From positions 1 through 28,572 of IMG/VR virus record IMGVR_UViG_3300032086_003046: a DNA stretch of 28,572 nt; one strand, written 5' to 3'. A model generated the notes under the pieces. The model was not told the origin of the DNA. It did no database searches and saw nothing but the letters and a program-made list of their open reading frames with translations. Position numbers and translations under genes: made by a program. Positions within the stretch are counted from its first letter, which is position 1. Each line of letters begins with the position of its first letter. The DNA comes from a virus. Positions 1 through 17,630 of the stretch are shown here, one piece after another.

Positions 1-802
1 CAATGCTATTATTAGCTAATGCTCTTTGAGGATCTGCGTCATACCAGTTACCTATTTTAGCGTCACGCATACGTTGATCAGATAGATTGCTTAAGCTAAT
101 CAAGGCACTGCGACGTACGCCTCCTACTACGACTATCTCGCCTACCATACACATCAAATCATGCACTTCAATACTAGTTAGCTTCCGTCCTGCTGCTTTT
201 TGAAAAGTCATAATAGTATAGTTAAACAGCCGCTTTAATGGTTCAGGTCCTGATGAACGGCCACCAAAGGTCTTAAGTCTTGCACCTGCCGGTCGCAACC
301 TACTGAAATCAGTGTCCGGAACACTGCCATTATACAAATAATTAAAAAGCGCGTGATAAGCTTTCGCCCAGCCCTTTTTGCTATCTTCGACAACAATTGT
401 ATCTCCAGTTTTTTCTAAAATTTGCGGTATTTTAGGTAACTTCGAGATCTCTTGCCGCTCACAAGAAAAGCCCACACCGGTGCCACACATTAAAATGTAT
501 AAAGTTTCAGCAAATGCTCGTTTAGTATTTACAGCTATATAAGAACAGTTATACCCAGCTAAATTTTCTCTGTCTAATGCAGGTCCTGCAGTCATTAGCG
601 CACGCATAGACGGCATTACTTCTAGATTAACTATAGCAGGTTTAACTTGCTCTTGTAACACAGAACTAAATTGCTTATTAGTTCGATTATCAAAATAGTC
701 TATATATCTTTGTACTGTTTCTGGCCATGTCTCTCGTCTTCCCAAATCTTCTCTCCATCTTGAGTATCGAGAAATATGGATATATTGTTGGTACAAATCC
801 AT
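1..802 (-). CDS. Class II (B12-dependent) ribonucleotide reductase, N-terminal part
   Basis: The frame stays open from an ATG at 802 to the window edge (267 residues); the C-terminal half, with the thiyl cysteine and cobalamin-binding parts, is outside. The protein would reduce ribonucleotides to deoxyribonucleotides using adenosylcobalamin and no oxygen. Evidence is the monomeric RTPR-type N-terminus YSRWREDLGRRETW (residues 13-26) followed by ETVQRYIDYF, then NCSYIAVN with C86 in the place of the first redox cysteine, CGTGVGFSCER, and VGGVRRSALISLSNLSD followed by MRDAKIGNWY and RALANNS at the left edge. These are family landmarks of Lactobacillus-type RTPR and phage homologues. I chose the start at 802 because GAAGAGG lies about 10 bases upstream, the conserved N-terminus begins soon after, and an in-frame stop lies at 818-820. 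The first 103 bases overlap the gene at 700-903 in another frame. Host cobalamin would be needed. Confidence 0.9.
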   Translation of the reverse strand, partial: MDLYQQYIHISRYSRWREDLGRRETWPETVQRYIDYFDNRTNKQFSSVLQEQVKPAIVNLEVMPSMRALMTAGPALDRENLAGYNCSYIAVNTKRAFAETLYILMCGTGVGFSCERQEISKLPKIPQILEKTGDTIVVEDSKKGWAKAYHALFNYLYNGSVPDTDFSRLRPAGARLKTFGGRSSGPEPLKRLFNYTIMTFQKAAGRKLTSIEVHDLMCMVGEIVVVGGVRRSALISLSNLSDQRMRDAKIGNWYDADPQRALANNSI

Positions 803-2629: not shown

Positions 2630-2828
2630 CTTTAATCTCCTTAACTAATTTAACTACTTTATTAGTTTCGGTCTTTTTAATATCGTAGACATCCGCTAAA
2701 TATCTAACTAAATCTTCAAAGTCAGAACAAACTAAATGTCTAACGACTTCTAATACTTCCGCTTCGTCTTGCCACTCTTCTTTCAAGTGCCAACCGTTGT
2801 CACATTCTTGTATATGTAATAATAACAT
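2616..2828 (-). CDS. Small acidic hypothetical protein
   Basis: A 70-residue acidic protein beginning MLLLHIQECDNGW and ending in a lysine/glutamate-rich helix. No domain is recognised. It starts two bases after the stop of the primase-helicase gene and its end overlaps the A1-like gene start by 14 bases, so it fits the compact leftward operon. The ribosome binding site is weak (GTGGAA about 8 bases upstream), which suggests translation by reinitiation from the gene before it. Confidence 0.6.
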   Translation of the reverse strand: MLLLHIQECDNGWHLKEEWQDEAEVLEVVRHLVCSDFEDLVRYLADVYDIKKTETNKVVKLVKEIKDEPK

Positions 2829-2830
2829 AG

Positions 2831-5047: not shown

Positions 5048-5348
5048 GTTTCCAAAGTCCCCAAGGAAAAAAGCCTTCGTAATACCACGAGTTAGGTTGA
5101 ATCTTTATATAGTCGTTATCTAACCAAGGAGGAAATAAGGACATATATAAAATTAGCTTTTGCTCAGGATCGGACAAAGAAATATAAATATCATAGTAAT
5201 GTAATAAATTGGTTAAATGAGGTCTAGAAATATGCAAGCCTAATTGTTTTATAATACGAGTAATAGGCACACCAGTTTGTTGTAACTGATATGCCTTAGC
5301 TAAAGTATTTTCAACAACTAGTTTACGCTTAGCTCTTGAAGTTTTCAT
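5040..5348 (-). CDS. Small HTH-like protein
   Basis: A 102-residue protein with a basic N-terminus (KTSRAKRKL) followed by a segment resembling a resolvase/homeodomain-like helix-turn-helix, about residues 17-50: alternating hydrophobics, TGVPITRIIKQLGL as helix-turn, then SRPHLTNLL as the possible recognition helix. The C-terminus is rich in aromatic residues (WYYEGFFPWGLW). It may bind DNA as a small regulator or replication accessory factor; this is inference from the helix pattern only. It overlaps the glycosylase-like gene by 20 bases and the primase-helicase by 8, placing it in the early leftward operon. Confidence 0.55.
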   Translation of the reverse strand: MKTSRAKRKLVVENTLAKAYQLQQTGVPITRIIKQLGLHISRPHLTNLLHYYDIYISLSDPEQKLILYMSLFPPWLDNDYIKIQPNSWYYEGFFPWGLWKRD

Positions 5349-5673
5349 ACCGTTCCTTGCACTCGGGACAACGAGTTATTAGATCATTTAGTGCAGCTTC
5401 TTTGTTAACCGTAGCTAGTTGAGTAAATCTCGATAAATAAGAACTATCTGCAACTAATAAGTCAGAATCATGATTATAACCACGCCTGATCATTTCGCGT
5501 GCTAACTCTTCGTGACGTGCAGCTAATTGGCTTATTTGCAACTGATTTAATACTGCATGACCTTCTAAAGACTTTTGCTTATTCAGCGCGCCGTTAATCA
5601 TGTGACATTCAACATGCTCGCCTAGTAAGTGCTTTCTGCACATGATTTCTGGCGGTAACATCCACATACGCAT
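5329..5673 (-). CDS. Pyrimidine dimer DNA glycosylase-like protein
   Basis: The 114-residue product resembles the Pyr_excise family (T4 endonuclease V-like), enzymes that cut UV-damaged DNA at pyrimidine dimers. Landmarks are the N-terminal MRMWMLPPEIMCRKHLLGEH, the segment AARHEELAREMIRRGYNHDS in the middle, and a C-terminal LITRCPECKERY. In T4 endonuclease V the catalytic nucleophile is the N-terminal amine and an early Glu is essential; E19 in HLLGEH is the natural candidate here. T4 enzyme has Thr after Met, while here Arg follows Met, so the initiator Met may be kept. The stop of the preceding gene is two bases upstream, and AAGGG serves as ribosome binding site. DNA repair early in infection would suit a phage of sunlit water. 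The family call rests on motif memory. Confidence 0.6.
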   Translation of the reverse strand: MRMWMLPPEIMCRKHLLGEHVECHMINGALNKQKSLEGHAVLNQLQISQLAARHEELAREMIRRGYNHDSDLLVADSSYLSRFTQLATVNKEAALNDLITRCPECKERYENFKS

Positions 5674-5675
5674 AA

Positions 5676-6017
5676 TTAAACCCTTGATTTTTGCTTATCG
5701 GTTTTCTTTAATTCTTTCATTTGTCTGTGTTCTTTATGTCGTTGCTCTAAGAATTTTTCTGGGCTAATTGCACCTACAATCCACTTATATTCATAAGGAG
5801 CTTTGTAATCTATTTTAGGTGAAGCGTGCACTTCTTTAGCACAGCCTAATTTATACCCTGTAACAGTTTCAACAACTACCAAGTCGCCTACTTCAACATA
5901 AGTTTCATTTTCTACTTTATATGTATAGCGTTTTTTGCTTCTATCATTTAAAAATTCAAATGAAATTGTATAAAAGGTGCCTGCTTGTTGTTTAGTTAAT
6001 TCGTGAATATCCGCCAT
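5676..6017 (-). CDS. Hypothetical early protein, first gene of leftward operon
   Basis: This 113-residue protein is the first gene read leftward from the divergent control region. The middle holds a small beta-rich segment (YVEVGDLVVVETVTGYKLG, about 40-58) followed by AKEVH, reminiscent of an SH3-like or OB-like barrel. The C-terminus is very basic (KELKKTDKQKSR), suggesting nucleic-acid contact. I do not recognise the family. GGAG lies 9 bases before the ATG, and the putative -10 box at 6050-6055 would give a leader of about 25 bases. Position suggests early, strong expression. Confidence 0.7.
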   Translation of the reverse strand: MADIHELTKQQAGTFYTISFEFLNDRSKKRYTYKVENETYVEVGDLVVVETVTGYKLGCAKEVHASPKIDYKAPYEYKWIVGAISPEKFLEQRHKEHRQMKELKKTDKQKSRV

Positions 6018-6049
6018 GTTTGGTCTCCATATAACTGAATTTATTAAAG

Positions 6050-6076
6050 ATTATATTATACTAGATATTGTTGCAA
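6050..6076 (-). promoter_or_regulatory. Putative leftward promoter
   Basis: On the minus strand TTGCAA (6076-6071) is followed after 15 bases by TATAAT (6055-6050). A second, overlapping TATAAT lies at 6060-6055, only 10 bases from TTGCAA and so too close to use with it. The hexamers fit sigma-70 consensus well (4/6 and 6/6) but the 15-base spacer is short. It is the only promoter-like signal directly before the leftward gene cluster. Confidence 0.5.
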
Positions 6077-6084
6077 AAATGAAA

Positions 6085-6141
6085 TAACTTTTAGTTATAA
6101 GAAACGGCTAAATTTAGTCTTAATAAATCTATTAAAAGTTA
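6085..6141. repeat. 9-bp inverted repeat in the divergent control region
   Basis: TAACTTTTA (6085-6093) and its exact reverse complement TAAAAGTTA (6133-6141) are separated by 39 bases. The right arm overlaps the putative -35 box of the rightward promoter and the left arm lies just upstream of the leftward -35 box. It could be a paired operator for a regulator acting on both transcripts, or part of a replication origin. At this AT content a 9-bp repeat could also arise by chance. Confidence 0.35.
6093..6104 (+). repeat. Direct repeat copy 1 (AGTTATAAGAAA)
   Basis: AGTTATAAGAAA occurs here, about 125 bases before the start of the gene at 6218, and again at 6712-6723, about 103 bases before the SSB gene. 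Both copies are followed by one variable base and then G. Similar placement before two consecutive rightward genes suggests a shared regulatory site. Confidence 0.4.
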
Positions 6142-6169
6142 ACACAAGTTAGAATATTTAAACTATAAT
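6139..6169 (+). promoter_or_regulatory. Putative rightward promoter
   Basis: TTAACA (6139-6144) and a perfect TATAAT (6164-6169) are spaced by 19 bases, slightly longer than the 17-base optimum. A start near 6176 would give a leader of about 40 bases, with TGAGG as ribosome binding site before the ATG at 6218. It would drive the replication gene cluster. The whole of 6018-6217 has no gene and is very AT-rich, so it may also hold the replication origin; I see no clear iterons. Confidence 0.5.
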
Positions 6170-6217
6170 TAAATCTAATGTGTGAATCAAACTTAACCAA
6201 TCAAATGAGGATTAATA

Positions 6218-6712
6218 ATGTCAATTAAAAAAGCTTATACAAGCCTAGTATCTTTTTTACAAGCTAATCAAGATAAAACTGTTTCAGATATTTTGGATGA
6301 AGTGGTTGAAATGTGTTCGGCTAAATCTGCTGGTTCTTCTGCTACTACTGTCCATAAAAATGAAGAAGGTGTTGTTACTCACATTCGTTGTGGATTTTTC
6401 AAGCAATGGCTACCTCTTTCTCATGTAGAATTCGGAACTAAGTCAAGTTCTGCTTCTGGATACAACTCTATGAGTAAAGCAGGCCAATCAATTTGGACTA
6501 AAAAACAACGTGACGCTAAAAAAGCTCGTGAAGAGTTGCTTGATGGTGTAGCTTCTGGTGATGTCGATCCTTCTGATCTTGCTGAAAAGTTAGAAGCTAT
6601 CGAAGCAGAACGCACTGAAGTTGTACCCCATCCTTTAGGTGCTGACACGTTAGAAGAAGCTTTAGCTTACTCTGCTGAAGAATTAGACAATATGGCTGAA
6701 GCTGCAGCTTAA
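6218..6712 (+). CDS. Hypothetical early protein, first gene of rightward cluster
   Basis: This 164-residue protein opens the rightward cluster. The N-terminal half is polar, with a small segment around EGVVTHIRCGFFKQWLPLSH (48-67) that looks like a compact beta fold. The middle is basic (IWTKKQRDAKKAREELLDG) and the last 60 residues are acidic and helical, ending EELDNMAEAAA. No family is recognised. GAGG sits about 8 bases upstream of the ATG. Being first behind the main control region and next to the SSB gene, it may be an abundant early or replication-associated protein; this is inference from position only. Its codon use is rich in T-ending codons like those of highly expressed neighbours. 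Confidence 0.75.
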   Translation: MSIKKAYTSLVSFLQANQDKTVSDILDEVVEMCSAKSAGSSATTVHKNEEGVVTHIRCGFFKQWLPLSHVEFGTKSSSASGYNSMSKAGQSIWTKKQRDAKKAREELLDGVASGDVDPSDLAEKLEAIEAERTEVVPHPLGADTLEEALAYSAEELDNMAEAAA

Positions 6713-6723
6713 GTTATAAGAAA
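6712..6723 (+). repeat. Direct repeat copy 2 (AGTTATAAGAAA)
   Basis: Second exact copy of the 12-base sequence found at 6093-6104. It begins on the last base of the stop codon of the preceding gene and lies just before the hairpin at 6732-6767, in the SSB leader region. Confidence 0.4.
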
Positions 6724-6731
6724 TGTGATTA

Positions 6732-6767
6732 GTATAGCTAAAAGTTATTGTTAATTTTTAGCTATAC
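6732..6767 (+). terminator. 12-bp perfect hairpin before the SSB gene (attenuator-like)
   Basis: GTATAGCTAAAA (6732-6743) pairs perfectly with TTTTAGCTATAC (6756-6767) around a 12-base loop. The stem is AT-rich and no T-run follows on the plus strand, so it is a poor intrinsic terminator. It may be an RNA processing or stability element, a weak attenuator, or, as DNA, an operator palindrome overlapping the putative promoter at 6748-6777. Confidence 0.45.
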
Positions 6768-6777
6768 GTTGTATTAT
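6748..6777 (+). promoter_or_regulatory. Putative internal promoter for SSB
   Basis: TTGTTA (6748-6753) and TATTAT (6772-6777) are separated by 18 bases, placed so that a transcript would begin about 40 bases before the SSB start codon at 6826. Matches are moderate (4/6 and 5/6). The right arm of the hairpin at 6732-6767 lies between the two boxes, which would allow a DNA-binding regulator to act there. Confidence 0.35.
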
Positions 6778-6825
6778 AGAATCTAATTTATTAAATCAAC
6801 TTAATCTTAAAGGTAATATCATATT

Positions 6826-7500
6826 ATGTCGAAAAATCCCTCTATACTTGTAGATACTCCTATTGGTGACCTAGAATGGGTTATTATTTCTGGCGAAGGC
6901 TCTGAAGACTTAAACGGTAATATGAAGTATAAAGCTTCTATGGTACTTGACCTAGAAAAGCAAGCACACTCAGAATTTGTTGCTATGGTCAAAGACTTTT
7001 GGAATACTAATAAACCAAAAGCGTTCAAAAAAGCCGAAGCAGATTCTATGGGGTTATATCCTCATAGGGTACCTACAGGAAATAAGGACGAGAATGGCGA
7101 TCCTATTTATGAAGAAACAGGAAAAGTTATTGTGGTTTTCAAAACTGGCACTACGTTTAAAGACGGCAAGCCTAAAACTGTTAAAGTATTTAACGCTAAA
7201 GGCGCTGAAGTTCTCTTGGGCGATAAGAAGATTGCTAACGGAAGTAGAGGCAGACTTGGTGGCGTTATGGCTATATATACTACAACGGATAGAAGTGGCA
7301 ACAAAATAGTTAATTCTGGTGTTACTTTTTATCTAAATAAAGTGCAATTAACTAAGTTTGTAGAATTCGTTGGCGAAGGCTTTGACGCTATTGAAGATGC
7401 TGAAGTAGAAGAAGCTTTCGAAGGTACTGGCGACATGGGTGCAGTAGTTGATGACGAAGTAACTGAAACTGCTACGATAGACAAACCTCGCTTAGATTAA
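6826..7500 (+). CDS. Single-stranded DNA-binding protein, T7 gp2.5-like
   Basis: This 224-residue protein has the shape of the T7 gp2.5/DUF2815 group: an OB-fold-like core and a long acidic C-terminal tail (about residues 185-224, with runs of D and E, ending DKPRLD). In the core, FKTGTTFKDGKPKTV (about 106-120) is followed by KVFNAKGAEVL, a conserved glycine-rich GSRGRLGG (about 143-150), and then a strand pair ending VTFYLNKVQLTKFVEF, parallel to the equivalent region of gp2.5. It would coat single-stranded DNA at the fork and recruit polymerase and helicase through its acidic tail. It has its own leader with hairpin and promoter-like boxes and is followed by a terminator, suggesting separate high-level expression, as expected for an SSB. 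Confidence 0.85.
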   Translation: MSKNPSILVDTPIGDLEWVIISGEGSEDLNGNMKYKASMVLDLEKQAHSEFVAMVKDFWNTNKPKAFKKAEADSMGLYPHRVPTGNKDENGDPIYEETGKVIVVFKTGTTFKDGKPKTVKVFNAKGAEVLLGDKKIANGSRGRLGGVMAIYTTTDRSGNKIVNSGVTFYLNKVQLTKFVEFVGEGFDAIEDAEVEEAFEGTGDMGAVVDDEVTETATIDKPRLD

Positions 7501-7520
7501 TAATAAGAAGTGCCAACTAT

Positions 7521-7552
7521 AGCCCGCATTATGCTTGTTGTGGGCTCTTTTT
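7521..7552 (+). terminator. Rho-independent terminator after SSB
   Basis: AGCCCGCA (7521-7528) pairs with TGTGGGCT (7539-7546) through 8 base pairs including one G-U, around a 10-base loop, and is followed by C and five T. It lies between the SSB stop and the polymerase start, so full-length transcription of the downstream replication genes must depend on readthrough or antitermination. Confidence 0.75.
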
Positions 7553-7571
7553 AACCAAATAGGATAAAGAT

Positions 7572-9236
7572 ATGTCAATCTATAAAACAGTTAATTTAGA
7601 TGAAGTACAAGCCGCAATAAACCCTTCTGAAGACCTTGCATTCGATACTGAAACTATTGGTAAATATGGACATATTAAGCTAGCTCAATTTTATCAACGG
7701 CATTGGAAGCAAGCTTTGATAGTGATAGACCCGCCAATATTTGACTTGTTCCTTTTATTAAATAATTTCAATAAAACTAATATTGTAATGCAATATGCTT
7801 CTTACGATATTAGCACCATACAAACCCAAACAGGTTCTCGTTGGGTACCTAAAACGTTTAGCGATACTTTCTTGCTCGCTAGATTGGCCTTTCCTCATTT
7901 AGACAAATACAGTTTAGATGAACTAATTGCTTTAGTTTATGATGGCGATCCTTACGCTGAAGCTAATATTATTAAAGCAGATATGCATAAAGCAGATTGG
8001 AAATTCTTAGACGAACAGAAATTACTCTATGCTGCAATAGATGTCTATTATTTATTTTATCTTTATGATAAAGTCAAGCATTGCGAAAATAGCTTATCTT
8101 ATAAAATAGATATGAGAGCATTACGACGTGCATTAGATTTTCAATGTAATGGTTTAGCAGTAGACAGAGATAAACTAGACGCTAAACTAAAACAGAATCT
8201 AATAGATATAGACTATGAAGCGCTTCCAATTAACGCTAATAGCTATAAACAAGTTAGACCTTATATCGGTTCGGATGAATCAGACGCAAAAGGATTAGCT
8301 AGATTAGCTATGTTTGGCAATGAAAAAGCTGCACAAGTACGTAGAGTTAGATCGTTGTTGAAACAAAATTCTTTTATTAAGAAATTTGACACTGAAGAAG
8401 GTAGAATATACGGTCGCTTTGCTCCTTCTACACGATCTGGGCGCTTCTCTTGTTCGGACCAAAATTTACAGCAGTTGCCTAGAGCTTTGAAAGGTTGTTT
8501 TGGAGTGTCTGAAGACAAGGTGCTAATTTTCTCTGATTATGCTCAATTAGAGTTAAGAACAATTGCGGCTATAACTGGCGATGTAGCTTTATGCCAATTC
8601 TTTTATAACAAAGAAGATGCGCACGGTATTGTAGCCGAAAAGTTTTTTGGGCCTAATTGGACTAAAGATAATAGACAGACAACTAAGACAATTAACTTTA
8701 ACGCGCTATACGGCGGAGGTGCGCCCATGCTACAGCAAATTCTACTAATGCAAGCTAATCAATGGCATGAAGTAGAAGCAGTACGAACAATGATGCGGAA
8801 ATGGAAACGCTTGTTTGCAGGCATCGCAGCATGGCAAGAAAACGGCATTAAAGAGCATAAGAAAGGTAGATTAGGTTCTACTCCTTTTGGTCGGCAGTAC
8901 AAAGGCCGTTTAATGACTGATCATCTTAATATTGAAAATCAAGGTTTTGGAGCAGACGTGGCTAAATTAGCTTTACACTATATGTATGATGATCTTATAG
9001 CTACTGATGCTAAATTAGTTAATTTCGTGCACGATTCTTACATTATTGAAATGGATAACGACGAATCTGCGTACAAAACTGTTTGTGCACGTTTAGCAGA
9101 AGCAATGAAAGATGCGTGGAGTGAAGCAAGTAAAATGGCCCGAATTAAAGATATACCAATGCCGGTAGAAGTATCTGTCGGTTTTAATTGGGGTGAAATA
9201 GAATCAGGTAAAACTATATACAGTACGGAGGCCTAA
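7572..9236 (+). CDS. polA: Family A DNA polymerase with 3'-5' exonuclease domain
   Basis: A 554-residue replicative polymerase. The exonuclease domain shows Exo I FDTET (D25, E27), Exo II region YASYD (D79) and Exo III YAAID (Y153, D157), so proofreading should be active. The polymerase domain shows STRSGRFSCSDQNLQQLPR (286-304), motif A SDYAQLELR (321-329, catalytic D322), motif B RQTTKTINFNALYG (368-381) with Phe376 at the E. coli Pol I 762 position, and motif C VHDS (486-489). Motif C has Ser instead of the usual Glu after the catalytic Asp488. Only about 130 residues separate Exo III from the motif before A, much less than in T7 polymerase (704 aa in total), so the thumb is strongly shortened. 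AGGATAAAG precedes the ATG, and its stop is directly followed by the ThyA-family start. Confidence 0.95.
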   Translation: MSIYKTVNLDEVQAAINPSEDLAFDTETIGKYGHIKLAQFYQRHWKQALIVIDPPIFDLFLLLNNFNKTNIVMQYASYDISTIQTQTGSRWVPKTFSDTFLLARLAFPHLDKYSLDELIALVYDGDPYAEANIIKADMHKADWKFLDEQKLLYAAIDVYYLFYLYDKVKHCENSLSYKIDMRALRRALDFQCNGLAVDRDKLDAKLKQNLIDIDYEALPINANSYKQVRPYIGSDESDAKGLARLAMFGNEKAAQVRRVRSLLKQNSFIKKFDTEEGRIYGRFAPSTRSGRFSCSDQNLQQLPRALKGCFGVSEDKVLIFSDYAQLELRTIAAITGDVALCQFFYNKEDAHGIVAEKFFGPNWTKDNRQTTKTINFNALYGGGAPMLQQILLMQANQWHEVEAVRTMMRKWKRLFAGIAAWQENGIKEHKKGRLGSTPFGRQYKGRLMTDHLNIENQGFGADVAKLALHYMYDDLIATDAKLVNFVHDSYIIEMDNDESAYKTVCARLAEAMKDAWSEASKMARIKDIPMPVEVSVGFNWGEIESGKTIYSTEA

Positions 9237-10043
9237 ATGCCAAGTCAATTTGAATTAGATTATATTAGTCTTATAGACAAAATTAAGCGTAAAGGAGTTC
9301 GCAGAGAAACTAGAAATTACCCTACTTTTTCTCTTTTCGGCGAAACTTTAGAGATAAGAGAACTAGAGCAAGGAATCTTTCCTATTTTAACAGGGCGTAA
9401 AATGTATTATAAAGGAGTATTAGGAGAATTCGCTGCTTTTATTCATGGAGTAGACAAATTAGAAGACTTTGAAAAGTTTGGCTGTAACTATTGGAGGCAG
9501 TGGGCTAATAAAGATGGTTCAATTAAAGTGGACTACGGCAACACTTGGAGGAATTTCGAGGGCTATGATCAGTTAGCTAAACTAATAGAGACACTTAAAA
9601 CTAATCCTGCGGATCGTAGGATGTTGATCTCTGGTTGGAGACCTCACGCTTTAGCTGAATTGTCTTTGCCTTGTTGTCATTTATTGTACCAATGGTATGT
9701 TAATGCGGATACTAATAGACTTGAAATGATATGGTATCAGCGATCTGTAGATGTAATGGTCGGTTTACCTTCAGATATTATCTTAGCAGCAATATGGAAT
9801 ATAACTTTAGCTGCTGAAGTAGGGCTAAAGCCGGGCAAGATTACTATGATGTTAGGTGATACACATATATATTCCAATCACGCAGAAGCAGCTATGCAAT
9901 ATTGTAGGCAATCGTTCCAAGCCCCTTATTCTCCAAAATACAAGATATTAGCTGGAACTAAATGCACTACATTTACTCCAGACGAATTTGAACTTATTGA
10001 TTACCATCCAGCAAATCCCATTAAATTCGAGGTACATACATGA
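9237..10043 (+). CDS. ThyA-family pyrimidine (hydroxy)methyltransferase, possibly dCMP-specific
   Basis: This 268-residue protein is the usual ThyA length. Family landmarks are clear: R26 for phosphate near the N-terminus, GEF with E64, WRQW (86-89), DRRMLISGW (126-134), catalytic C147 in LPCCH, YQRSVD (R169, S170, D172) and GDTHIYSNH (207-215). The enzyme transfers a one-carbon unit from methylene-tetrahydrofolate to C5 of a pyrimidine nucleotide. Thymidylate synthases have Asn (E. coli N177) in GLPFN to select dUMP; here the motif reads GLPSD, with D180. Asp is found at this place in T4 dCMP hydroxymethylase, and Asn-to-Asp mutants of synthase prefer dCMP. The substrate may therefore be dCMP, giving 5-hydroxymethyl- or 5-methyl-dCMP. 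The retained Trp pair and His148 look synthase-like, so ordinary dTMP synthesis is not excluded. GGAGG is 5 bases before the ATG, and the stop overlaps the kinase gene by 4 bases. Confidence 0.85.
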   Translation: MPSQFELDYISLIDKIKRKGVRRETRNYPTFSLFGETLEIRELEQGIFPILTGRKMYYKGVLGEFAAFIHGVDKLEDFEKFGCNYWRQWANKDGSIKVDYGNTWRNFEGYDQLAKLIETLKTNPADRRMLISGWRPHALAELSLPCCHLLYQWYVNADTNRLEMIWYQRSVDVMVGLPSDIILAAIWNITLAAEVGLKPGKITMMLGDTHIYSNHAEAAMQYCRQSFQAPYSPKYKILAGTKCTTFTPDEFELIDYHPANPIKFEVHT

Positions 10044-10672
10044 ATAATTCACACTTACCTAATATTTTAGTTTTAGGCTATAAAGAGCACGGTAAAGATT
10101 TTGTGTGCGAATTATTAGCTAAACATTTTGGTTTTAGTTTTACTTCTAGTTCTATGTTTTGCGCAGAAGAAATTCTCTTTCCACTCATGAAAGACAAATA
10201 TGCATATAAAGATGCAGAAGAGTGTTTTAATGATCGTAGAAGTAGTCAAGAAAAGCGCGCCTATTGGTTTGAACAAATTACGCAGTTCAACATACCTCAT
10301 AGAGATAGGTTAACTAGAGCAATATTGCGAACTAACGATATTTATTGTGGCATGCGCAATATAGAAGAATTTGAGGCCTCTAAACAGCATTTCCATTGCG
10401 TTGTTTGGGTAGATCGTAGTGAGCATTGTGAGCCTGAACCTGAAAGTTCTTGCACTGTGCATGCAAGTTTAGCTGATATAGTATTTGACAACAATGGCAC
10501 TAAAAAGCAAACTGAGCAAAAAGTTAAAAATTTGTATGCCACTATTATGCAGCAATATTTCAATAAAGAAATTGTTGTACCAGAACCGCAAAAAGTAGAA
10601 GTGGTTGCTATGGCCGCAGCTAAACCTAAATTTGATTTTAAACTGCAGACTAAAGGAACTTCAAATGAGTAA
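10040..10672 (+). CDS. Deoxynucleoside monophosphate kinase-like P-loop protein
   Basis: A 210-residue protein with a Walker A loop GYKEHGKD (13-20), in which Asp follows the Lys as in T4 gene 1 dNMP kinase and other phage dNMP kinases (GKD). A middle segment, DRLTRAIL followed by GMRNIEEFEA (about 107-116), resembles the substrate-binding/LID arginine region of these kinases, and VVWVDRS looks like a following core strand. It probably phosphorylates a dNMP to dNDP. It starts inside the stop of the ThyA-family gene (ATGA), so the two proteins are made together, suggesting that it acts on that enzyme's product. The C-terminal 40 residues are a basic, proline-containing tail not needed for the kinase fold. 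Confidence 0.65.
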   Translation: MNNSHLPNILVLGYKEHGKDFVCELLAKHFGFSFTSSSMFCAEEILFPLMKDKYAYKDAEECFNDRRSSQEKRAYWFEQITQFNIPHRDRLTRAILRTNDIYCGMRNIEEFEASKQHFHCVVWVDRSEHCEPEPESSCTVHASLADIVFDNNGTKKQTEQKVKNLYATIMQQYFNKEIVVPEPQKVEVVAMAAAKPKFDFKLQTKGTSNE

Positions 10673-11450
10673 GATAATTATTAGGCCTTCTTCTGTGGAC
10701 GCTTTTTTACAGTGTCCGCAGCAATGGTATCAAGTATTTATCAAAGGGCGTACCTCTATACCAGGCGCCCGTGCAGCTATAGGCACAGCTATACATAAAG
10801 CTGCAGAAGTTTTATGGAATAACGCCATGAAGACTAGATCTAAAGATTCTAATATGTCTGAGTTGACAGATGCGGCCATGGAGGCGTATTCAGAAGAAGA
10901 GCAAAAAGGTTTGATGTATGATAAAGACGAAAATAAAAATACTGCGGCAGTCGAAATAGTCAAAGGTACCGAAGCGTTTGTAGAAGACGTCGTGCCTTGG
11001 GTATCTATACCTACTGGGGTTGAAAAGCGGTTTACAGTAGAGTTAGAAGGCCATCCTATAGTTTCTGCAGTTAGTGGCACGGTTGATTATATAGCTGACG
11101 GCATCATAGCAGATTTAAAAACTACTAAACGTAAGCCTACAGTAGCTAATTACAAAACACAGCAGTCTATTTATAAGTTTTTAGCTGAGAAGAATGGCGT
11201 AAACGTCAAAGAAAATCAGATTCATGGAGTAGTTTTAAAGAAAGTTCCAGAAGGAACAGTAATTCCTGCAGCAATAGATGTGCCTCAAGCTAAATCTACT
11301 GTTAACACTTTATTAGATACTTTGGAAGTGTATAATGAAGATATAGTAGATCCTGATATTTTGTTTAGGGGTAATCCTAAATACTATTTGTGTAGTCCTA
11401 AGTATTGCTCATTCTATAACGAGTGCAAATTTGTCAAAGGAGAATCTTAA
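10665..11450 (+). CDS. Cas4/RecB-type PD-(D/E)XK exonuclease with Fe-S cysteines
   Basis: The real start is the ATG at 10665 (MSKIIIRPSS), preceded by AAAGGA, giving 261 residues; the longer frame lacks a sensible N-terminus. The protein shows the Cas4/AddB/RecB nuclease pattern: SSVDAFLQCPQQWY with C17, H44 in GTAIHKAAE, D141 in SGTVDYI, D150 and K152 in IADLKT, and QQSIY (Q167 and Y170) as motif QxxxY. Three C-terminal cysteines (C243, C248, C254) with C17 match the 1+3 arrangement that holds a 4Fe-4S cluster in AddB and Cas4. It probably resects DNA ends for recombination or degrades host DNA. It overlaps the kinase gene by 8 bases, and with the helicase, ligase and VRR-NUC downstream forms a DNA processing set. 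Confidence 0.85.
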   Translation: MSKIIIRPSSVDAFLQCPQQWYQVFIKGRTSIPGARAAIGTAIHKAAEVLWNNAMKTRSKDSNMSELTDAAMEAYSEEEQKGLMYDKDENKNTAAVEIVKGTEAFVEDVVPWVSIPTGVEKRFTVELEGHPIVSAVSGTVDYIADGIIADLKTTKRKPTVANYKTQQSIYKFLAEKNGVNVKENQIHGVVLKKVPEGTVIPAAIDVPQAKSTVNTLLDTLEVYNEDIVDPDILFRGNPKYYLCSPKYCSFYNECKFVKGES

Positions 11451-11620
11451 TGAGTGTTGAAAAAGAAGTGCAAAATAAAATACGTTATCGTAACGATAGA
11501 ATATCTAAGTTAGAAGCGGAGCTAAAAATATTACGAGATGAGCGTAAACTACTAGAAAGTTGTTTGAGGCCGCCGAAACCTATAGATATAGCTAATGCAG
11601 TAATGAACGAGTACTATTAA
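11450..11620 (+). CDS. Small coiled-coil protein
   Basis: A 56-residue protein beginning MSVEKEVQNKIRYRNDRISK. I choose the ATG at 11450, which shares one base with the previous stop (TAATG) and has AAAGGAGA just before it. Residues 5-45 form a heptad-like helix (ISKLEAELKILRDERKLLES). The protein ends PPKPIDIANAVMNEYY, a possible short binding peptide. It lies between the nuclease and the helicase, joined to each by one-base overlaps, so it may be a small cofactor of one of them; function unknown. Confidence 0.65.
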   Translation: MSVEKEVQNKIRYRNDRISKLEAELKILRDERKLLESCLRPPKPIDIANAVMNEYY

Positions 11621-12813
11621 TGAAGCCTAGAGAATCCCAAATTCGAATGGCAGAAAGAGCGTTTGCTGTATTAAAGGCAAATGCTCTTGTTTATTTAGCT
11701 GCAGAAGAGCGAACAGGTAAAACGTTAGCTTCTATATTAGTTGCAGAGAAATGTACTACAGTAAATAGAGTCTTAGTAGTTACTAAGAAAAAGGCTTTAG
11801 ACGGTTGGCGTGATACCTTGAAAAAGTTTAAACATACTAAGCAATATACAGTAACTAATTATCATCAAGCTAAAAAAGTAAATGGTAAAGACTTAGATCT
11901 TGTAATTTTAGATGAAGCACATAATTATATAGCTTCTTCTCCCAAGCCTTCAGGTTTATGGAAGACGATTAAGCCTTTAACTAAGAATTTGCCTCTTATC
12001 TATATCTCTGCTACGCCTCATGCACAAGGCTATCAGCAGTTATTCCATCAATTAGCGCTTAGTTCATGGTCTCCTTGGGTTGATTATATAAACTTTTACA
12101 AATGGTTTAAAGATTATGGAGTGCCTAATAAGATATGGATTCAGGGCCAAATGAAGGAAACCTATACTAAAACTAAAGAGGAACTAATTAGACAAGAAAC
12201 TAACCATTTATTTATAACAGCCACTAGACGAGAATTAGGGTTCGAGCACGAGCCAGAAGATAAACTTCATTATATAACTCTTAAGAAAGCCACTAAACAG
12301 CTTTATAATGATTTAATGAAAAAACGTCTTGCTGAAATGGAAGGAGAGATGCTTGTTTGCGATACGCCAATGAAATTGCGCGTAAGTCTTCACATGTTAG
12401 AAGGAGGTGTAGCTAAAATAGAAGATAAATATATCGTGCTAGACAATACTGAAAAGATAGACTATATCATAAGAGAATGGGGCGATACTAATGATATGGT
12501 TATCTTTTATCACTACATAGCCGAAGGAGAAAAGCTGAGGAAAATATTCGCCAATGCTGAAATATTGCAAGGTACTTCTTATGCAGAAGGAGTAGACCTA
12601 AGTAAATATAAACATTTAATTGTATATAGCCAAGATTTTAGCACAGCTAAACACACGCAACGGCGTGCAAGACAAGCAAATTTTAAGCGCAAAGAAGCTA
12701 TTACAGTACATTATTTAGTTGTAGAGAAAGCTATATCTGAACAAGCTTATCACACTGTGTCAGTGAATAAAACCAACTTTGTTGACTCTGTATTTGAAAG
12801 GATAGAACTATGA
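11620..12813 (+). CDS. SF2 (SNF2/DEAH-like) helicase
   Basis: A compact 397-residue superfamily 2 ATPase. Visible motifs are Walker A AEERTGKT (28-35), VLVVTKKK (51-58, Ia region), Walker B LVILDEAH (94-101), motif III SATPH (130-134), motif V-like GVDLSKYKHLIVYSQ (324-338) and motif VI QRRARQAN (347-354). These define a DEAH-box enzyme close to phage SNF2-like helicases, with little beyond the two RecA-like domains. It would remodel DNA or protein-DNA complexes in recombination or replication restart. It is joined to its neighbours by TAATG (upstream) and ATGA (downstream ligase) overlaps. Confidence 0.85.
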   Translation: MKPRESQIRMAERAFAVLKANALVYLAAEERTGKTLASILVAEKCTTVNRVLVVTKKKALDGWRDTLKKFKHTKQYTVTNYHQAKKVNGKDLDLVILDEAHNYIASSPKPSGLWKTIKPLTKNLPLIYISATPHAQGYQQLFHQLALSSWSPWVDYINFYKWFKDYGVPNKIWIQGQMKETYTKTKEELIRQETNHLFITATRRELGFEHEPEDKLHYITLKKATKQLYNDLMKKRLAEMEGEMLVCDTPMKLRVSLHMLEGGVAKIEDKYIVLDNTEKIDYIIREWGDTNDMVIFYHYIAEGEKLRKIFANAEILQGTSYAEGVDLSKYKHLIVYSQDFSTAKHTQRRARQANFKRKEAITVHYLVVEKAISEQAYHTVSVNKTNFVDSVFERIEL

Positions 12814-13652
12814 TTAAACAGCCAATGCTAGCTTATAGTAAAGTACCTGCTTTAGACACTATTAATTACCCTGTATTTGTTTCTCCTAAATTAGATGGTA
12901 TTAGATGTGTAATGTTAAATGGAATACCGCATACGTTTAATCGTAAAAATAAAGTATGGAACAAAGTACCTAATGAATTTGTCTGCCAAGAATTAAGTAA
13001 ATTAGCCTTACCTACTTTTGACGGAGAGCTCATGGTTAACGGAGGTTTTAATAAAGTTCAAAGTAGCATAATGAGTGCTAAAGGAGCTTGTGATTTTACG
13101 TATAATGTTTTTGATATTATCGCAGAAGCGCCTTTTTCTAAAAGAATAGAGCAGGTTACTAGTATTATTCGAACAATACAAAGTCCGCGCATTTCTGCTG
13201 TAGATCAATATTGGGTAGAAAATTCTACGCAATTGTTAAGTTTATGGGATAGTTTTATCGCAAAAGGCTATGAGGGCGCGATGGTACGAAGTTTATTAGG
13301 TCCATATAAGTTTGGACGGAGCACTTTAAAAGAAGGCTATTTAATGAAGCTAAAGCAGTTTTTTGAAAGTGAAGCTATCATAGTTGATTACAAAGAACTA
13401 ATGCACAACGCAGATACTACTACAAACAAACAAGAGAATATGTTTGGAGGTAATACCTTAGGCGCATTGGTAATGGATTGGAAAGGAGAGGAATTCGATT
13501 TAGGTTCTGGATTTAATCAAGAACAGCGAGATAAGATATGGGCGAACAAAGAAAGTCTTCTTGGTTCAACAGTTACTTTTAAATACCAAGAAGTAACTAA
13601 AGATAATAAACCTCGTTTTCCCGTATTTAAATCTTTTAGAGAAGGCTACTAG
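12810..13652 (+). CDS. ATP-dependent DNA ligase
   Basis: A 280-residue minimal nucleotidyltransferase ligase. The adenylated lysine is K27 in SPKLDG, with R32 after it; motif III is DGELMV (71-76, E73), motif IV EGAMVR (155-160) and motif V LMKLK (178-182). A C-terminal OB-fold-like domain follows, including VTFKYQEV near the end. The size is somewhat smaller than T7 ligase (359 aa), with no extra N-terminal domain. It would seal nicks between Okazaki fragments and after repair. The ATGA overlap with the helicase and the one-base overlap with the VRR-NUC gene mark it as part of one operon. Confidence 0.9.
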   Translation: MIKQPMLAYSKVPALDTINYPVFVSPKLDGIRCVMLNGIPHTFNRKNKVWNKVPNEFVCQELSKLALPTFDGELMVNGGFNKVQSSIMSAKGACDFTYNVFDIIAEAPFSKRIEQVTSIIRTIQSPRISAVDQYWVENSTQLLSLWDSFIAKGYEGAMVRSLLGPYKFGRSTLKEGYLMKLKQFFESEAIIVDYKELMHNADTTTNKQENMFGGNTLGALVMDWKGEEFDLGSGFNQEQRDKIWANKESLLGSTVTFKYQEVTKDNKPRFPVFKSFREGY

Positions 13653-13942
13653 TGGCGGAAGCTAAGCTTCAGGCTAAAATCCTAAAGTATTTAGAATCTT
13701 TAGGTTTTGTAGTCATTAAGATTGTCGTTGCTAATAAAGCAGGCCATGCAGATATAGTTTGTTGTGCGCCTAATGGCAAATTCTTCGCTATAGAAGTTAA
13801 AGACGATGACGTGCCTAGAGAACTACAAGAATATAAATTAAACTTATATCTTAAAAATAATGGAGTCGCTTTCTGGTGCGACTCCTATGAAATGTTTGAA
13901 AAAGAATTTAATAAAGTTAAACGTTCACTTGGACTTAAATAA
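13652..13942 (+). CDS. VRR-NUC-type endonuclease
   Basis: A 96-residue protein with the VRR-NUC form of the PD-(D/E)XK fold: helix EAKLQAKILKYLESLG, then HADIV with D34, followed by GKFFAIEVK with E48 and K50, and a helix with Q59. Stand-alone phage VRR-NUC proteins are thought to act on branched DNA such as Holliday junctions, a role consistent with the ligase and helicase upstream. The start is GTG at 13652 sharing one base with the ligase stop (TAGTG). It is the last gene of the rightward cluster and its end overlaps the end of the opposing holin gene by 18 bases. Confidence 0.85.
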   Translation: MAEAKLQAKILKYLESLGFVVIKIVVANKAGHADIVCCAPNGKFFAIEVKDDDVPRELQEYKLNLYLKNNGVAFWCDSYEMFEKEFNKVKRSLGLK

Positions 13943-14437
13943 ATTACCTCCTCTAGAACCAAACCACCACCCTACAGCCAACACAGTTAAGTATAAAGAT
14001 GCAGCTACCATATCTTTAAGCATAACAACTAATTCTGTTTTATCGAAAGCCTCTAATCCGCCTACTGCTACCCATACTTGGGCAAAAAGTGCAGTTACTG
14101 CAAGTAATAAGTAAGAAGTTACTGCAGGACGCACAAACTTTAGTAGACCTTCTACCTTGTTGCCGTGCTCTTGGGAGACTGTAAATGCAGCAAGTTCTCC
14201 TTCATTAATACGGATAGCGCCTTCAACTTCTGCTTTGTCTATTTGTTTGTCAACTAAATCTAGTTCATGTTCGCGTTCTAGTTTAGCTTCTTCAATATCC
14301 AGTTCACGCATTTTAGAGTCGAAGGCGTATTTTTCTCGCTGTGCCTTTAACTCAGTAAACTTAGTTATTACGCCTCCAACCAATCCTGTTATCCCGGCGG
14401 CTCCAGGACCTGCAAGTATATCAACTAACCAACTCAT
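13925..14437 (-). CDS. Holin, 3-TM GTA-holin-like
   Basis: A 170-residue membrane protein resembling the 'holin of 3 TMs' family known from gene transfer agents and many phages. A short glycine-rich hydrophobic N-terminus (6-25) is followed by a charged helical stretch (about 28-75), then two strong transmembrane segments, 101-127 beginning FVRPAVTSYLLL and 144-161 ending VGWWFGSR; RPxxT and WWFGSR are typical of the family. It would open the inner membrane at lysis. Its start overlaps the end of the DUF5675 gene by 17 bases. It is the last gene of the leftward virion/lysis operon and meets the VRR-NUC gene tail to tail. Confidence 0.8.
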   Translation of the reverse strand: MSWLVDILAGPGAAGITGLVGGVITKFTELKAQREKYAFDSKMRELDIEEAKLEREHELDLVDKQIDKAEVEGAIRINEGELAAFTVSQEHGNKVEGLLKFVRPAVTSYLLLAVTALFAQVWVAVGGLEAFDKTELVVMLKDMVAASLYLTVLAVGWWFGSRGGNLFKSK

Positions 14438-14828
14438 CGATTACCTCCAATTCAAATTGTTTTCTCTTAGTAATTTCATTCAATTTTCGCATAGCACTGC
14501 GGCTATTTAATACTGCATTTTGTCCTGCTAATTTGCCTACTCTAAGTCCTAAAAGAAAGCATCCTTTAGTATGTTTAGCTGTATTACCATTGTGTATTAA
14601 GATACCAGTCCTATTTTTTACCTTCATAATGTGAAAACAGTTTCGGTATTTGCCCGAAGCAGAACGAGCTAAATAATTAACTTTGTAGAAACCTTGTGGT
14701 ATACAAGACACATTCCTAGTATTGTTTTTCCATGTTGGCTCCAAGACAAAAAACTTATGGCCGTTTATTACTAAACAGCCTAAAGTTTCTTTGTTGGTCC
14801 TTAGATATCTAATTAAAATAGCTTTCAT
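14421..14828 (-). CDS. DUF5675 family protein, candidate lysis enzyme
   Basis: I place the start at the ATG at 14828, one base after the tailspike stop, giving 135 residues (MKAILIRYLRTNKETLG). Landmarks are EPTWKNN, SCIPQGFYKVN, then GILIHNGNTAKHTKGCFLLG, which match the DUF5675 pattern of a HxGN motif followed by GC. The His then Gly-Cys arrangement resembles the L,D-transpeptidase active site (HxxG...S/T-x-G-C), so a peptidoglycan-related activity is a reasonable guess, supported by its position immediately before the holin. No lysozyme, amidase or peptidase is seen elsewhere in the window. Its function is not established in the family, so I treat it as a candidate endolysin only. Confidence 0.65.
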   Translation of the reverse strand: MKAILIRYLRTNKETLGCLVINGHKFFVLEPTWKNNTRNVSCIPQGFYKVNYLARSASGKYRNCFHIMKVKNRTGILIHNGNTAKHTKGCFLLGLRVGKLAGQNAVLNSRSAMRKLNEITKRKQFELEVIDELVS

Positions 14829-14829
14829 A

Positions 14830-17301
14830 TTAAGTAGCAGGGCTGACTGTTGAAAGATATTGAGCAACCCAAGTTCCAGGAGAGCCTGCAACAGTACATA
14901 CCCAATGGTCTAAGACCATATTATTCCCATCTACAGAAGGCGTAGTATTATACACTCTATCTCCTCTCTTCCAAGTGCCTGCTGTAGGTGCTGCGGTGCC
15001 TAAAAAGTTGGTTTTTAAGCTTCGCTCGTCGCACAACTCTTTTGTGATACCTCCCAATTCTCTAACAACTGGGCAAGCAAATTGTACTGTACCACTTGCA
15101 CCTACCTTAGTGACAGAAAAATCCATTACGCCTTTCACAGGAAATCTAAATATAGTTCTATAAGGTATCCAGTCGGTAATCGATTCGCTTGGAGTATCAG
15201 AGACTCCATTAACATACGTATTAATATAAGGATCATTAGGAGATTTTGCGTATATCACAAATTCGCCAAACATTCCTTGCAAATTAGGGTAATCATCCAT
15301 ATCAATTTGGAACCCAAACCGCCCAGACTCGCCAGAACTTAGATATTCTATTTCCCAAACCAAAGCGTTAGGATTCAAATCAAAAACAGTGGATGATCTT
15401 TGCCAGGTTCCTCCGCTACCAGAAACTAATGTCCATTTATTAAAATCTGCTTCAGTAAGTTCTATTTTTTCTGCTTCATCATATTCAATTCCAGCAAAAC
15501 CGCTTCCGGAGTCTAAAACAGCCCCAGTGCCAGCTAAAGGCATATTCATGATTCTTAATTCAGGTATAACTATTTCATAGGTATCTCCTGTATCCCAATC
15601 ATTATCTGTCCCACCTACTAAAGAAGCAGTAACAGTTGTGGCAGTATTATCTGTAATTAAATTATAAGAATCGTCAGTGACATTTTTAACTACAGAACCT
15701 ATTAAATAATCTACTGGGAAGGATGCACTAGAATCAGATAACGTAGCGCTATTATTACTTCCGTCGTGGGTTCCTGTATATTTCTTAGTAAAGCCGCTGT
15801 TGCCGAATATTTTAACGTTACTAAATTGGCCGTAGGTTAAATTACCTGACACATTGCCATAAGTGGCTATTAGCGAAGCTGTAGAGTTATGTAATGTATT
15901 ATTAGATACTCGCCCACCGTTCATTCCAGTCGCATAAATAAACGCAGTACCGCCTCCGCTAGCCACATAATTACTGTCTATAACAGTGTTAACACAAGGA
16001 GCACCATAGCTTAGATTAGTAGTACCTCCACCATTAATTATAATATCGGCTTTAATAGTTTCAGCCGGAGTGGTAAACGTGTAGCCTGTATTAGCGTTTG
16101 ATTCAAAATAACTATCTCTTATTGTACAATTTCTTAAATCATTAGTTAGTAGTACACCGCCTTTCGCGTTCAATTCAATAGTTGTACCGGAATCTATTGT
16201 GAATGAATTTGTTGAAGATCCCGCTATGACTCCTACACCGCTATTGCTGAATATCTTACAATGGGTAATAGATACTGAATTGTTAGAGCCTTGACCTCTC
16301 GCGGTTATCCCGTCACCAGAATTATTGGAAATCTCCACATTATCATATACAATCGACCAGCCATAACTAATATCAATTGCAGAAGTTAATGTCGCGTTTA
16401 TATAGCAATCTCGCATAGTAAAGTTATTAGTATAACCTTTAATCCCATGCGTTGCAATTGAATTGCCTATAAACCGCATACCGGTAATAGAAGATCTTTG
16501 TGTAATCGAGGTATCGCCTATCACAGAATCAGGCAAAGAAATCATTTCCGTGACACCTGCAAGCGCTTTAATTTCTGTGCCTGTTTTACTTGTCCCAATC
16601 CAGTTAAAAGTGCCGTCAACTGTAAGAGAAGCATCAATTAAATAAGTGCCATCTAACCAATCTAAAGTAAGTGCGCCTGCGGGTAATCCAGCTCCCGTTG
16701 CAGTCGTAGCATTGATAGCTGCTTGAAGATAGCTTGTATCAGTCGCACTATTATCTCCTTTTGCTCCCCATTGCCTCACATTTCTTTTGCCATCAGGAAA
16801 TAGTCCTTTTGCTTGATGCGTAACTAAATCTATATAGCGTCCGCCGTCATCAGTTCCTGTTGCAGCGGCCACTATTTCATAAGAGTTTGCTCCTCCGTCT
16901 CCAGCAGAGTAATATCCTAGAGTTTTTACTCTATCTCCTACAACTAAATTTGTATTGCTTTGCATCTCACTTACAGAAACGAAAGTTTGCTCTGTGCCTG
17001 TAATAGCCGTACGCACCCATTGCCCGCCTCCTAGCGCAGCGATAAAGTTATAATTATCTACAATTTCAGCAGAGGCAGCATCAAAACGATAGAAGGTGAA
17101 ATAATTATCTTTTGATAGCATGCAATGCTTTAACTTCGTTGTATCTAACAGACCTATTTCGCCTACTGTTGTATATACCCACGGTAAATCCATTAATGTG
17201 ACTGTTGTGTTAACTCCTTGTCGAGTCTGTACGGTAGAACCTTGCCCTAAAGCTAAATCCTCTTGGGCGGCTAATACTTTAGTTATAGTTCGCTCTGTCA
17301 T
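14830..17301 (-). CDS. Tailspike with right-handed beta-helix
   Basis: An 823-residue receptor-binding tail protein. Residues 1-100 look like a virion-anchoring head. Residues 105-145 carry the GYYSAGDGGANSYEI motif common at the neck of phage tailspikes. NVRQWGAKGDNSATDTSYLQ (174-193) opens the pectate-lyase-like beta-helix, with many N- and G-rich repeated strands (TMRDCYINAT, SITHCKIFSNSG, CTIRDSYFESN) up to about residue 480. The C-terminus has a jelly-roll-like region and a final APTAGTWKRGDRV...GSPGTW module, often seen as a trimer or carbohydrate-binding tail. It probably binds and may cleave a surface polysaccharide; catalytic residues cannot be assigned. It lies downstream of the ejection proteins and before the lysis genes, where host-range genes usually sit. 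Confidence 0.85.
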   Translation of the reverse strand: MTERTITKVLAAQEDLALGQGSTVQTRQGVNTTVTLMDLPWVYTTVGEIGLLDTTKLKHCMLSKDNYFTFYRFDAASAEIVDNYNFIAALGGGQWVRTAITGTEQTFVSVSEMQSNTNLVVGDRVKTLGYYSAGDGGANSYEIVAAATGTDDGGRYIDLVTHQAKGLFPDGKRNVRQWGAKGDNSATDTSYLQAAINATTATGAGLPAGALTLDWLDGTYLIDASLTVDGTFNWIGTSKTGTEIKALAGVTEMISLPDSVIGDTSITQRSSITGMRFIGNSIATHGIKGYTNNFTMRDCYINATLTSAIDISYGWSIVYDNVEISNNSGDGITARGQGSNNSVSITHCKIFSNSGVGVIAGSSTNSFTIDSGTTIELNAKGGVLLTNDLRNCTIRDSYFESNANTGYTFTTPAETIKADIIINGGGTTNLSYGAPCVNTVIDSNYVASGGGTAFIYATGMNGGRVSNNTLHNSTASLIATYGNVSGNLTYGQFSNVKIFGNSGFTKKYTGTHDGSNNSATLSDSSASFPVDYLIGSVVKNVTDDSYNLITDNTATTVTASLVGGTDNDWDTGDTYEIVIPELRIMNMPLAGTGAVLDSGSGFAGIEYDEAEKIELTEADFNKWTLVSGSGGTWQRSSTVFDLNPNALVWEIEYLSSGESGRFGFQIDMDDYPNLQGMFGEFVIYAKSPNDPYINTYVNGVSDTPSESITDWIPYRTIFRFPVKGVMDFSVTKVGASGTVQFACPVVRELGGITKELCDERSLKTNFLGTAAPTAGTWKRGDRVYNTTPSVDGNNMVLDHWVCTVAGSPGTWVAQYLSTVSPAT

Positions 17302-17309
17302 AAGTTACC

Positions 17310-17630
17310 TCACACATGAAAAAAATGTTTAATTAGTTTAGACGCAGCGTAGCCGATAACAGTGAATACCACACTCATAGCTGCTACTACTCCCATACCT
17401 TTATGTTTTAAATCCTGCAGTTCTTCCACAGAAGGTTCAATCCTTAGTTTTAAATCAGATTCTATTGTGTCTAAACGCGCTGCAACCAATTTTACTTCTT
17501 TTCTTATTTCTTCGTTATTATCATGCAATGCACCTAATTTAGAGCTTATTGCATCTACTCTTTGACTAGTTGCATCCTGTTTAGCTTCTATATTACCTAA
17601 TAAACGACTGATCTGATCTAACTCACTCAT
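17310..17630 (-). CDS. Coiled-coil protein with C-terminal membrane segment (XhlA-like)
   Basis: A 106-residue protein. Residues 1-75 form a long heptad-patterned helix (ISRLLGNIEAKQDATSQRVD, then VAARLDTIESDL), and a single transmembrane segment (GMGVVAAMSVVFTVIGYAAS, 78-97) is followed by a short basic tail. This topology, N-terminal coiled coil and C-terminal anchor, is that of the haemolysin XhlA group, small phage proteins often near holins. It could assist lysis or be a membrane component used in DNA entry. It starts three bases after the stop of the large ejection protein gene, with GAGG overlapping that stop. Confidence 0.6.
   Translation of the reverse strand: MSELDQISRLLGNIEAKQDATSQRVDAISSKLGALHDNNEEIRKEVKLVAARLDTIESDLKLRIEPSVEELQDLKHKGMGVVAAMSVVFTVIGYAASKLIKHFFHV

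Follow-up and report, generated by a model that had tools for sequence, protein, structure and literature searches.

In the MetaGPA work on phage DNA no domain was more significantly linked to modified cytosine than thymidylate synthase (PMC8670742); unmodified contigs mostly had Asn177 and modified ones mostly Asp177 (PMC8670742, eLife 2021), and position 147 was the other top position (PMC8670742). With Asp substituted for Asn at 177, the substrate of a canonical synthase changes from dUMP to dCMP and the product is 5-methyl-dCMP; other associated domains include PF14743, PF01068 and PF00383 (PMC8670742). Asp is common to MilA, BcmA and T4 gp42, all of which use cytosine substrates (PMC5175136). 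Hydroxymethylation has its own signature, an Asp or Glu at −3 from the catalytic Cys together with Ser or Thr at −2 from the active-site Tyr, and the T4 dCMP hydroxymethylase is missing the C-terminal tail; synthases yield dihydrofolate and hydroxymethylases tetrahydrofolate, and the latter need no dihydrofolate reductase, DHFR (PMC6400193). For phage Xp12, with its 5-methylcytosine, a 2020 paper on the DNA leaves the 5mC pathway to be published elsewhere (PMC7653180). The connection of Asp177 to modified cytosine is already known from MetaGPA, and what is described here is a large group of its own that carries this residue, that of Kafunavirus-like podophages, for whose enzyme a limited literature search found no paper treating it.

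The window, meaning the whole stretch of 28,572 nucleotides analysed here (IMG/VR record IMGVR_UViG_3300032086_003046), has a ThyA-family gene at 9237..10043 (+) whose 268-residue product matches PF00303 at 219.8 bits and is a candidate dCMP methylase from the active-site census, the tree and the predicted structure. Immediately upstream lies the gene of a family A DNA polymerase (7572..9236, +; PF00476, 135.2 bits), whose stop and the ATG of ThyA adjoin as TAAATG. The selecting-site motif reads WYQRSVDVMVGLPSDI, and alignment puts Asp180 (codon GAT, 9774..9776, +) opposite Asn177 of E. coli ThyA and Asp179 of T4 gp42, the same GAT codon being found in two further assemblies of the window's phage (L017 and L021). 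The preliminary description had read a GLPSD-type motif with Asp at the E. coli N177 position, and alignment and codon both confirm that observation, Asp at residue 180 standing in an otherwise intact ThyA. Kept in E. coli numbering are E58, W80, W83, Y94, R126, R127, C146, H147, R166, S167, D169, H207 and Y209; the PF00303 match with Glu58, Cys146, Arg166, Ser167, Asp169, His207 and Tyr209 places the protein in the ThyA/TS superfamily, and Asp180 stands in place of the Asn177 that marks a canonical dUMP synthase. The AlphaFold model (pLDDT 94.5) superposes on E. coli thymidylate synthase with Z 35.2 and rmsd 1.4 over 257 residues. Compared with canonical ThyA and T4 td the window protein has the same fold and the same other examined active-site residues but differs by Asp for Asn177 (T4 td, chain 1tis, has Asn there), and with T4 gp42 it shares the Asp of the base-selecting position and the catalytic Cys, Glu, Tyr and Arg.

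How general the Asp is was read from alignments of loci found in IMG/VR with three alignment queries and with single ThyA proteins, plus two metagenome-assembled contigs from a genome collection; an ORF was obtained in 216 of 217 loci, the clade locus L133 giving none. Five repeat loci were dropped before counting and near-copies on different contigs were kept, including the window's own phage twice. Since the searches use patterns taken from the queries, the counts are samples and not censuses, the clade list holding the best 80 of 141 matches and the control list the best 80 of at least 588. Within these bounds position 177 is Asp in 80 and Asn in 3 of the 83 contigs of the window's clade (clade list best 80 of 141), the td/ThyA-like phage control sample has 79 Asn and 2 Asp (n=81; best 80 of at least 588), and the Xp12/AXL1-like clade has Asp in 47/47 among the matches listed; all five named relatives that were read also have Asp. 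The Asp is typical of the window's clade and not a matter of chance. At position 147 the window keeps His, as ordinary synthases do, and the Xp12-like clade has Pro.

A quick maximum-likelihood tree of 98 rows was made with the selecting-residue column left out and with SH-aLRT as the only support. The window's clade (51 rows) is split from the ordinary Asn synthases at SH-aLRT 99 and the Xp12/AXL1-like clade (22 rows) forms its own branch at SH-aLRT 97, separate from that of the window; T4 gp42 is a very long branch whose placement is unsure. The nearest row to the window is L047, at 62% identity, the pair being held at SH-aLRT 97. A tree against thymidylate synthases had been proposed earlier as a check, and its outcome is that the window's clade stands apart and not among ordinary dUMP synthases. 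Asp at the selecting site together with a clade apart from ordinary synthases makes dCMP the likely substrate of the window enzyme. The Asn members L065, L066 and L067 lie scattered within the clade, so that the selecting residue seems to have undergone a natural switch inside it. The records of L066 and L067 gave no PF00383 deaminase match.

Whether a dCMP-using enzyme of this kind would make a methyl or a hydroxymethyl group can be judged from the published signature. Leu144-Pro-Cys-Cys147 of the window (9666..9677, +) has Leu three residues before the catalytic Cys, where the T4 hydroxymethylase has Asp145, and Leu is found there in 83/83 clade contigs (clade list best 80 of 141). Val98-Asp99-Tyr100 has Val two residues before the Tyr, and none of the clade motif matches listed has Ser or Thr at this place. 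Both tryptophans, Trp83 included, are kept, and the C-terminal tail is full length, its alignment with E. coli ThyA running right to the end although several letters differ. Asp145, Ser94 and Val85 of T4 gp42 have no equivalents in the window, which does have the tail. As a check on the acid criterion itself, T4 gp42 has the acid at −3 and AXL1, a phage that shares its genus with Xp12 and its 5mC DNA, is without it. The absence of the hydroxymethylase marks and the full-length tail sort the window with the methyl-forming enzymes, and Asp177 without those marks is the combination of the Xp12 kind of dCMP methylase.

A T4-like dCMP hydroxymethylase, giving 5-hydroxymethyl-dCMP, would account for the Asp at the T4 Asp179 position and for the 34 of 38 related records in which no DHFR was found, an enzyme that hydroxymethylases do not need (PMC6400193); the Leu before the Cys, the lack of Ser or Thr before the Tyr, Trp83, the tail and the presence of DHFR in the window's own phage all point the other way. 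No PF16861 carbamoyltransferase was found in any of 50 records (38 of the window's clade and 12 Xp12-like), and family scans found no glycosyltransferase among selected gene products of the window and of a longer record of the same phage (G001). The hydroxymethylase is accordingly judged a distinctly poor candidate. The preliminary description had left the product as 5-hydroxymethyl- or 5-methyl-dCMP; its dCMP half is upheld as probable by the Asp and the separate clade, its hydroxymethyl option is not supported, the marks being missing, and a methyl product appears favoured over a hydroxymethyl one on these residues.

The reading preferred here, given a probability of about 0.57, is that the window protein methylates dCMP in the manner of the Xp12 enzyme, whose phage has 5-methylcytosine, but belongs to a separate lineage. 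In such an enzyme the Asp, in place of the uracil-recognising Asn, would allow dCMP to bind, Cys147 would attack C6 and the carbon would be taken from methylene-tetrahydrofolate, with a folate hydride completing the methyl group so that 5-methyl-dCMP and dihydrofolate are formed. The phage DHFR would regenerate the folate, and the kinase coupled to the gene, or host kinases, would phosphorylate the product further to 5-methyl-dCTP as a substrate of the phage's DNA polymerase, with a dUTPase_2-type pyrophosphohydrolase perhaps lowering the competing dCTP or dUTP. Incorporation of 5-methyl-dC into the DNA would be a plausible outcome. Against a methylase count the three Asn contigs of the clade, the His147 that ordinary synthases also have, the lack of a PF00383 match in the window's phage and the rarity of DHFR in the clade.

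Much of what bears on this lies beyond the window. Record G001, of 41,916 bases in IMG/VR, is 99.96 to 100% identical to the window over 1-15111 and 15864-28572, and the 752 window bases between 15111 and 15864 fall at its ends. The N-terminal part of a ribonucleotide reductase at the left end of the window (1..802, −) is continued in G001, which holds the rest of it (PHROG 367, E 3.7e-189), followed there by genes for a DHFR (L016:9119-9727; PF00186, E 3.3e-45) and a dUTPase_2-type pyrophosphohydrolase (L016:8440-9135; PF08761, E 3.4e-25). The latter is the sole PF08761 match of G001 and lies outside the window, which agrees, for this family, with the earlier remark that the window has no dCTPase. 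T4 gp56, annotated as dCTPase/dUTPase, itself matches PF08761 (25.4 bits), BLASTP aligns it with the phage protein in short pieces (best E 5e-5), and the closest solved relative of the phage protein is the dUTPase 1w2y (E 4.4e-24). DHFR in G001 fits a reaction that yields dihydrofolate.

DHFR and dUTPase also fit plain dTMP synthesis, and nothing speaks more strongly for the main rival, an ordinary thymidylate synthase in which Asp is tolerated and dUMP becomes dTMP, the dUTPase giving dUMP, DHFR recycling the folate and the kinase making dTDP. Ribonucleotide reductase, dUTPase_2 and DHFR in one genome with ThyA and the kinase make up the usual dTMP kit, the fold is nearest to thymidylate synthases, the other examined active-site residues, His147 included, are synthase-like, and there are Asn members inside the clade. 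That a diverse clade holds almost uniformly to Asp (80/83, clade list best 80 of 141) and that Asp at 177 shifts synthases to dCMP (PMC8670742) both tell against it, and on balance an ordinary synthase seems unlikely. A T4-like phage with an Asp-type td is a further point in its favour. Of the controls, two loci carry Asp: L014, a seed of the control search, and L181, a 98% relative of the seed UPEC01; L130:295-1155 (Escherichia phage UPEC01, a Gaprivervirus) and L181 both hold a T4-like td with GLPFD and so Asp at 177. These Gaprivervirus proteins are nested among Asn td proteins in the tree, which means that Asp alone proves nothing, and their own substrate may deserve attention. UPEC01 has a DHFR gene upstream of the Asp-type td.

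Neighbouring genes were surveyed in 38 related records, chosen from the larger contigs. Of these, 34 have a PF00383 deaminase, which was not found in the window's phage, in VPMS1 or in two Asn-type records, one of which is a 21 kb fragment; the PF14743 ligase is in 35/38, and in the window it is an ATP-dependent DNA ligase with a DNA_ligase_OB_2 domain at 12810..13652 (+), with 65.1 bits for PF14743 and 32.9 bits for PF01068. PF00186 DHFR occurs in 4/38, the window's phage included, one of these matches being below the curated cut-off. dUTPase_2 (PF08761) also occurs in 4/38, and in these four no NTP pyrophosphohydrolase was detected near ThyA (for L047, 526 bases downstream were seen).

Flank counts were made with home-made profiles on loci with at least 2.5 kb downstream, repeats being kept. 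Among the matches listed, the deaminase is in the flanks of 92/116 Asp-type loci (52/72 in the window's clade and 40/44 in the Xp12-like one) vs 6/80 Asn-type loci, and the flanks of both Asp-type controls gave none. In a dereplicated set the figures are 44/48 Asp-type and 3/23 Asn-type, but the tree offers just three independent pairs; shared descent could by itself account for the association, which loses significance when kinship is taken into account. DHFR is in the flanks of 61/75 Asn controls, 32/44 Xp12-like loci and 5/72 Asp loci of the window's clade among the matches listed, the last figure speaking against DHFR as a general part of the pathway; for L083/G019 the home-made DHFR profile and Pfam disagree. 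In G003, a sister record, one contig end cuts through the kinase frame and the other end carries a deaminase gene and then a nuclease. No terminal repeat was found in G003; its ends probably meet, which would place a dCMP-deaminase-type gene between kinase and nuclease. Against this arrangement the window order of ThyA, kinase and nuclease makes the deaminase appear missing there in the window's phage.

The frequency of the deaminase raises the possibility that dCMP is methylated for thymidine supply and not for DNA modification, with 5-methyl-dC nucleotides being deaminated to thymidine nucleotides. 5-Methyl-dCMP is a substrate of dCMP deaminases, and for the enzyme of Xp12 a conversion of 5-methyl-dCTP to dTTP is reported (PMC12088426), so a dCMP-methylating phage could make thymidine nucleotides, and in most of the sampled relatives a dCMP-deaminase-type enzyme could do this within the clade. 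Its occurrence in most of the records scanned and near most of the clade's Asp loci is in keeping with such a role, although neither the window's phage nor VPMS1, both of them with the Asp, gave a PF00383 match; as the sole purpose of the enzyme, thymidine supply is considered very improbable.

Downstream of ThyA lies an NMP-kinase-like protein with the P-loop GYKEHGKD (10040..10672, +), assigned from PHROG matches and a model, whose ATG overlaps the ThyA stop in ATGA at 10040-10043, so that the coupling noted in the preliminary description looks real. It matches PHROG 139 (dNMP kinase) over residues 98-177 at E 2.7e-10 and PHROG 38514 (unknown) at E 3.2e-43, and there is no Pfam match at E 0.01. 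The model (pLDDT 89.4) has an NMP-kinase-like fold and aligns with the T4 dNMP kinase 1dek at Z 11.6, rmsd 3.0 and 161 aligned residues, the best row having Z 13.3, so that dephospho-CoA and other kinases tie with or beat 1dek. Foldseek gives a sugar kinase and dephospho-CoA kinases as top hits with 1dek at E 2.3e-3, and by profile 1dek is found at E 0.0098, behind dephospho-CoA and adenylate kinases. The proposed likeness to T4 gene 1 shows in the PHROG 139 match, but it is distant and finds no echo in Pfam, and the protein is probably a nucleotide kinase.

A role for the kinase as a pointer to base modification, put forward with the coupling, is not supported by its distribution and was rejected as a mark. 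It is present in just 4/38 whole related records, and a single-protein search of IMG/VR gave matches solely from the window's own phage; near ThyA it is seen at 24/116 Asp-type loci (the window's phage counted twice) vs 0/80 Asn-type loci among the matches listed. There are 35 phage records with a kinase match, and 14 of these were examined for PF00303, which was matched in six and gave no match in the other six plus two N4-like roseophages in which the kinase family is fused to ThyX (Thy1; L028:2492-4018 and L034:2480-3922). In five of the six PF00303-bearing records, from Roseobacter, Ruegeria and Rhodobacter phages, ThyA adjoins the kinase and has Asp; in the sixth, Chryseobacterium phage MA9V-1 (L044), an Asn ThyA is far from the kinase, and a second, weaker PF00303 match of 48.4 bits has the motif GLPID by eye. 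The phages RcRudolph, RDJL Phi 1, RcSimone-Hastad, Tedan and RDJL3 (L024, L025, L026, L030 and L031) have a kinase-bearing gene, an Asp-type ThyA and a dCMP deaminase, with an annotated DHFR in all except Tedan, and the kinase-bearing gene has a PRA-PH pyrophosphohydrolase domain in both of those scanned. The set resembles the AXL1 cassette, and the five phages are candidates for 5-methylcytosine DNA.

After the kinase comes a PD-(D/E)XK nuclease (10665..11450, +; PF12705, 57.2 bits). It had been called Cas4-like, and a base change was suggested to shield the phage DNA from it; among PHROGs it matches an exonuclease best (5.5e-20) and 'CRISPR/Cas system associated' less well (2.7e-8), which leaves the shielding argument without direct basis. 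Elsewhere in the window a small protein at 5329-5673 (−) matches PHROG 1183 (endonuclease V N-glycosylase UV repair enzyme, E 2.5e-10), a protein of 510 residues at 1097-2629 (−) matches PHROG 1745 (DNA transfer protein, E 5.8e-97), and one of 139 residues at 24069-24488 (−) is cupin-like by eye.

Set beside the known systems, the Asp177 synthases of the MetaGPA modified contigs are alike in the Asp and, for the clade, in the PF14743/PF01068 ligase and the PF00383 deaminase, while a carbamoyltransferase was seen there and PF16861 was not found in the 50 records scanned here. As the clade carries the domain set associated in MetaGPA, that study may well have sampled it. Xp12 and its kin (AXL1 and PaMx28, AXL1 standing in for Xp12) are alike in having a ThyA-family protein with Asp177 and no acid three residues before the Cys, and in having DHFR and an NTP pyrophosphohydrolase in the genome, as does the window's phage; they differ in belonging to another clade of the tree, with Pro147 in contrast to His147, and in that a dCMP deaminase adjoins the gene there and none was found in the window's phage. 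The Kafunavirus-like podophages KF-1 (Edwardsiella), VPMS1 (Vibrio) and PH1 (Pseudoalteromonas) are of the same clade as the window, at about 46% identity and with Asp, and have the polymerase upstream and the ligase downstream of ThyA in the order of the window, with an annotated NTP pyrophosphohydrolase after ThyA in VPMS1 and KF-1 where the window has the kinase.

A wider proposal, held as tentative, is that Kafunavirus-like podophages may hold a second dCMP methylase lineage, distinct from that of Xp12 and derived from a thymidylate synthase largely through the single Asn-to-Asp change, mostly coupled to a deaminase for thymidine, with DHFR instead of the deaminase in the window's phage and with some lineages having switched between Asp and Asn. 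If the methylase reading is right, podophages including isolates of Vibrio, Edwardsiella and Pseudoalteromonas probably have 5-methylcytosine DNA, the enzymes of the clade would be misnamed thymidylate synthases, and in the clade one could study how nature moves between methylating dUMP and methylating dCMP by a single residue.
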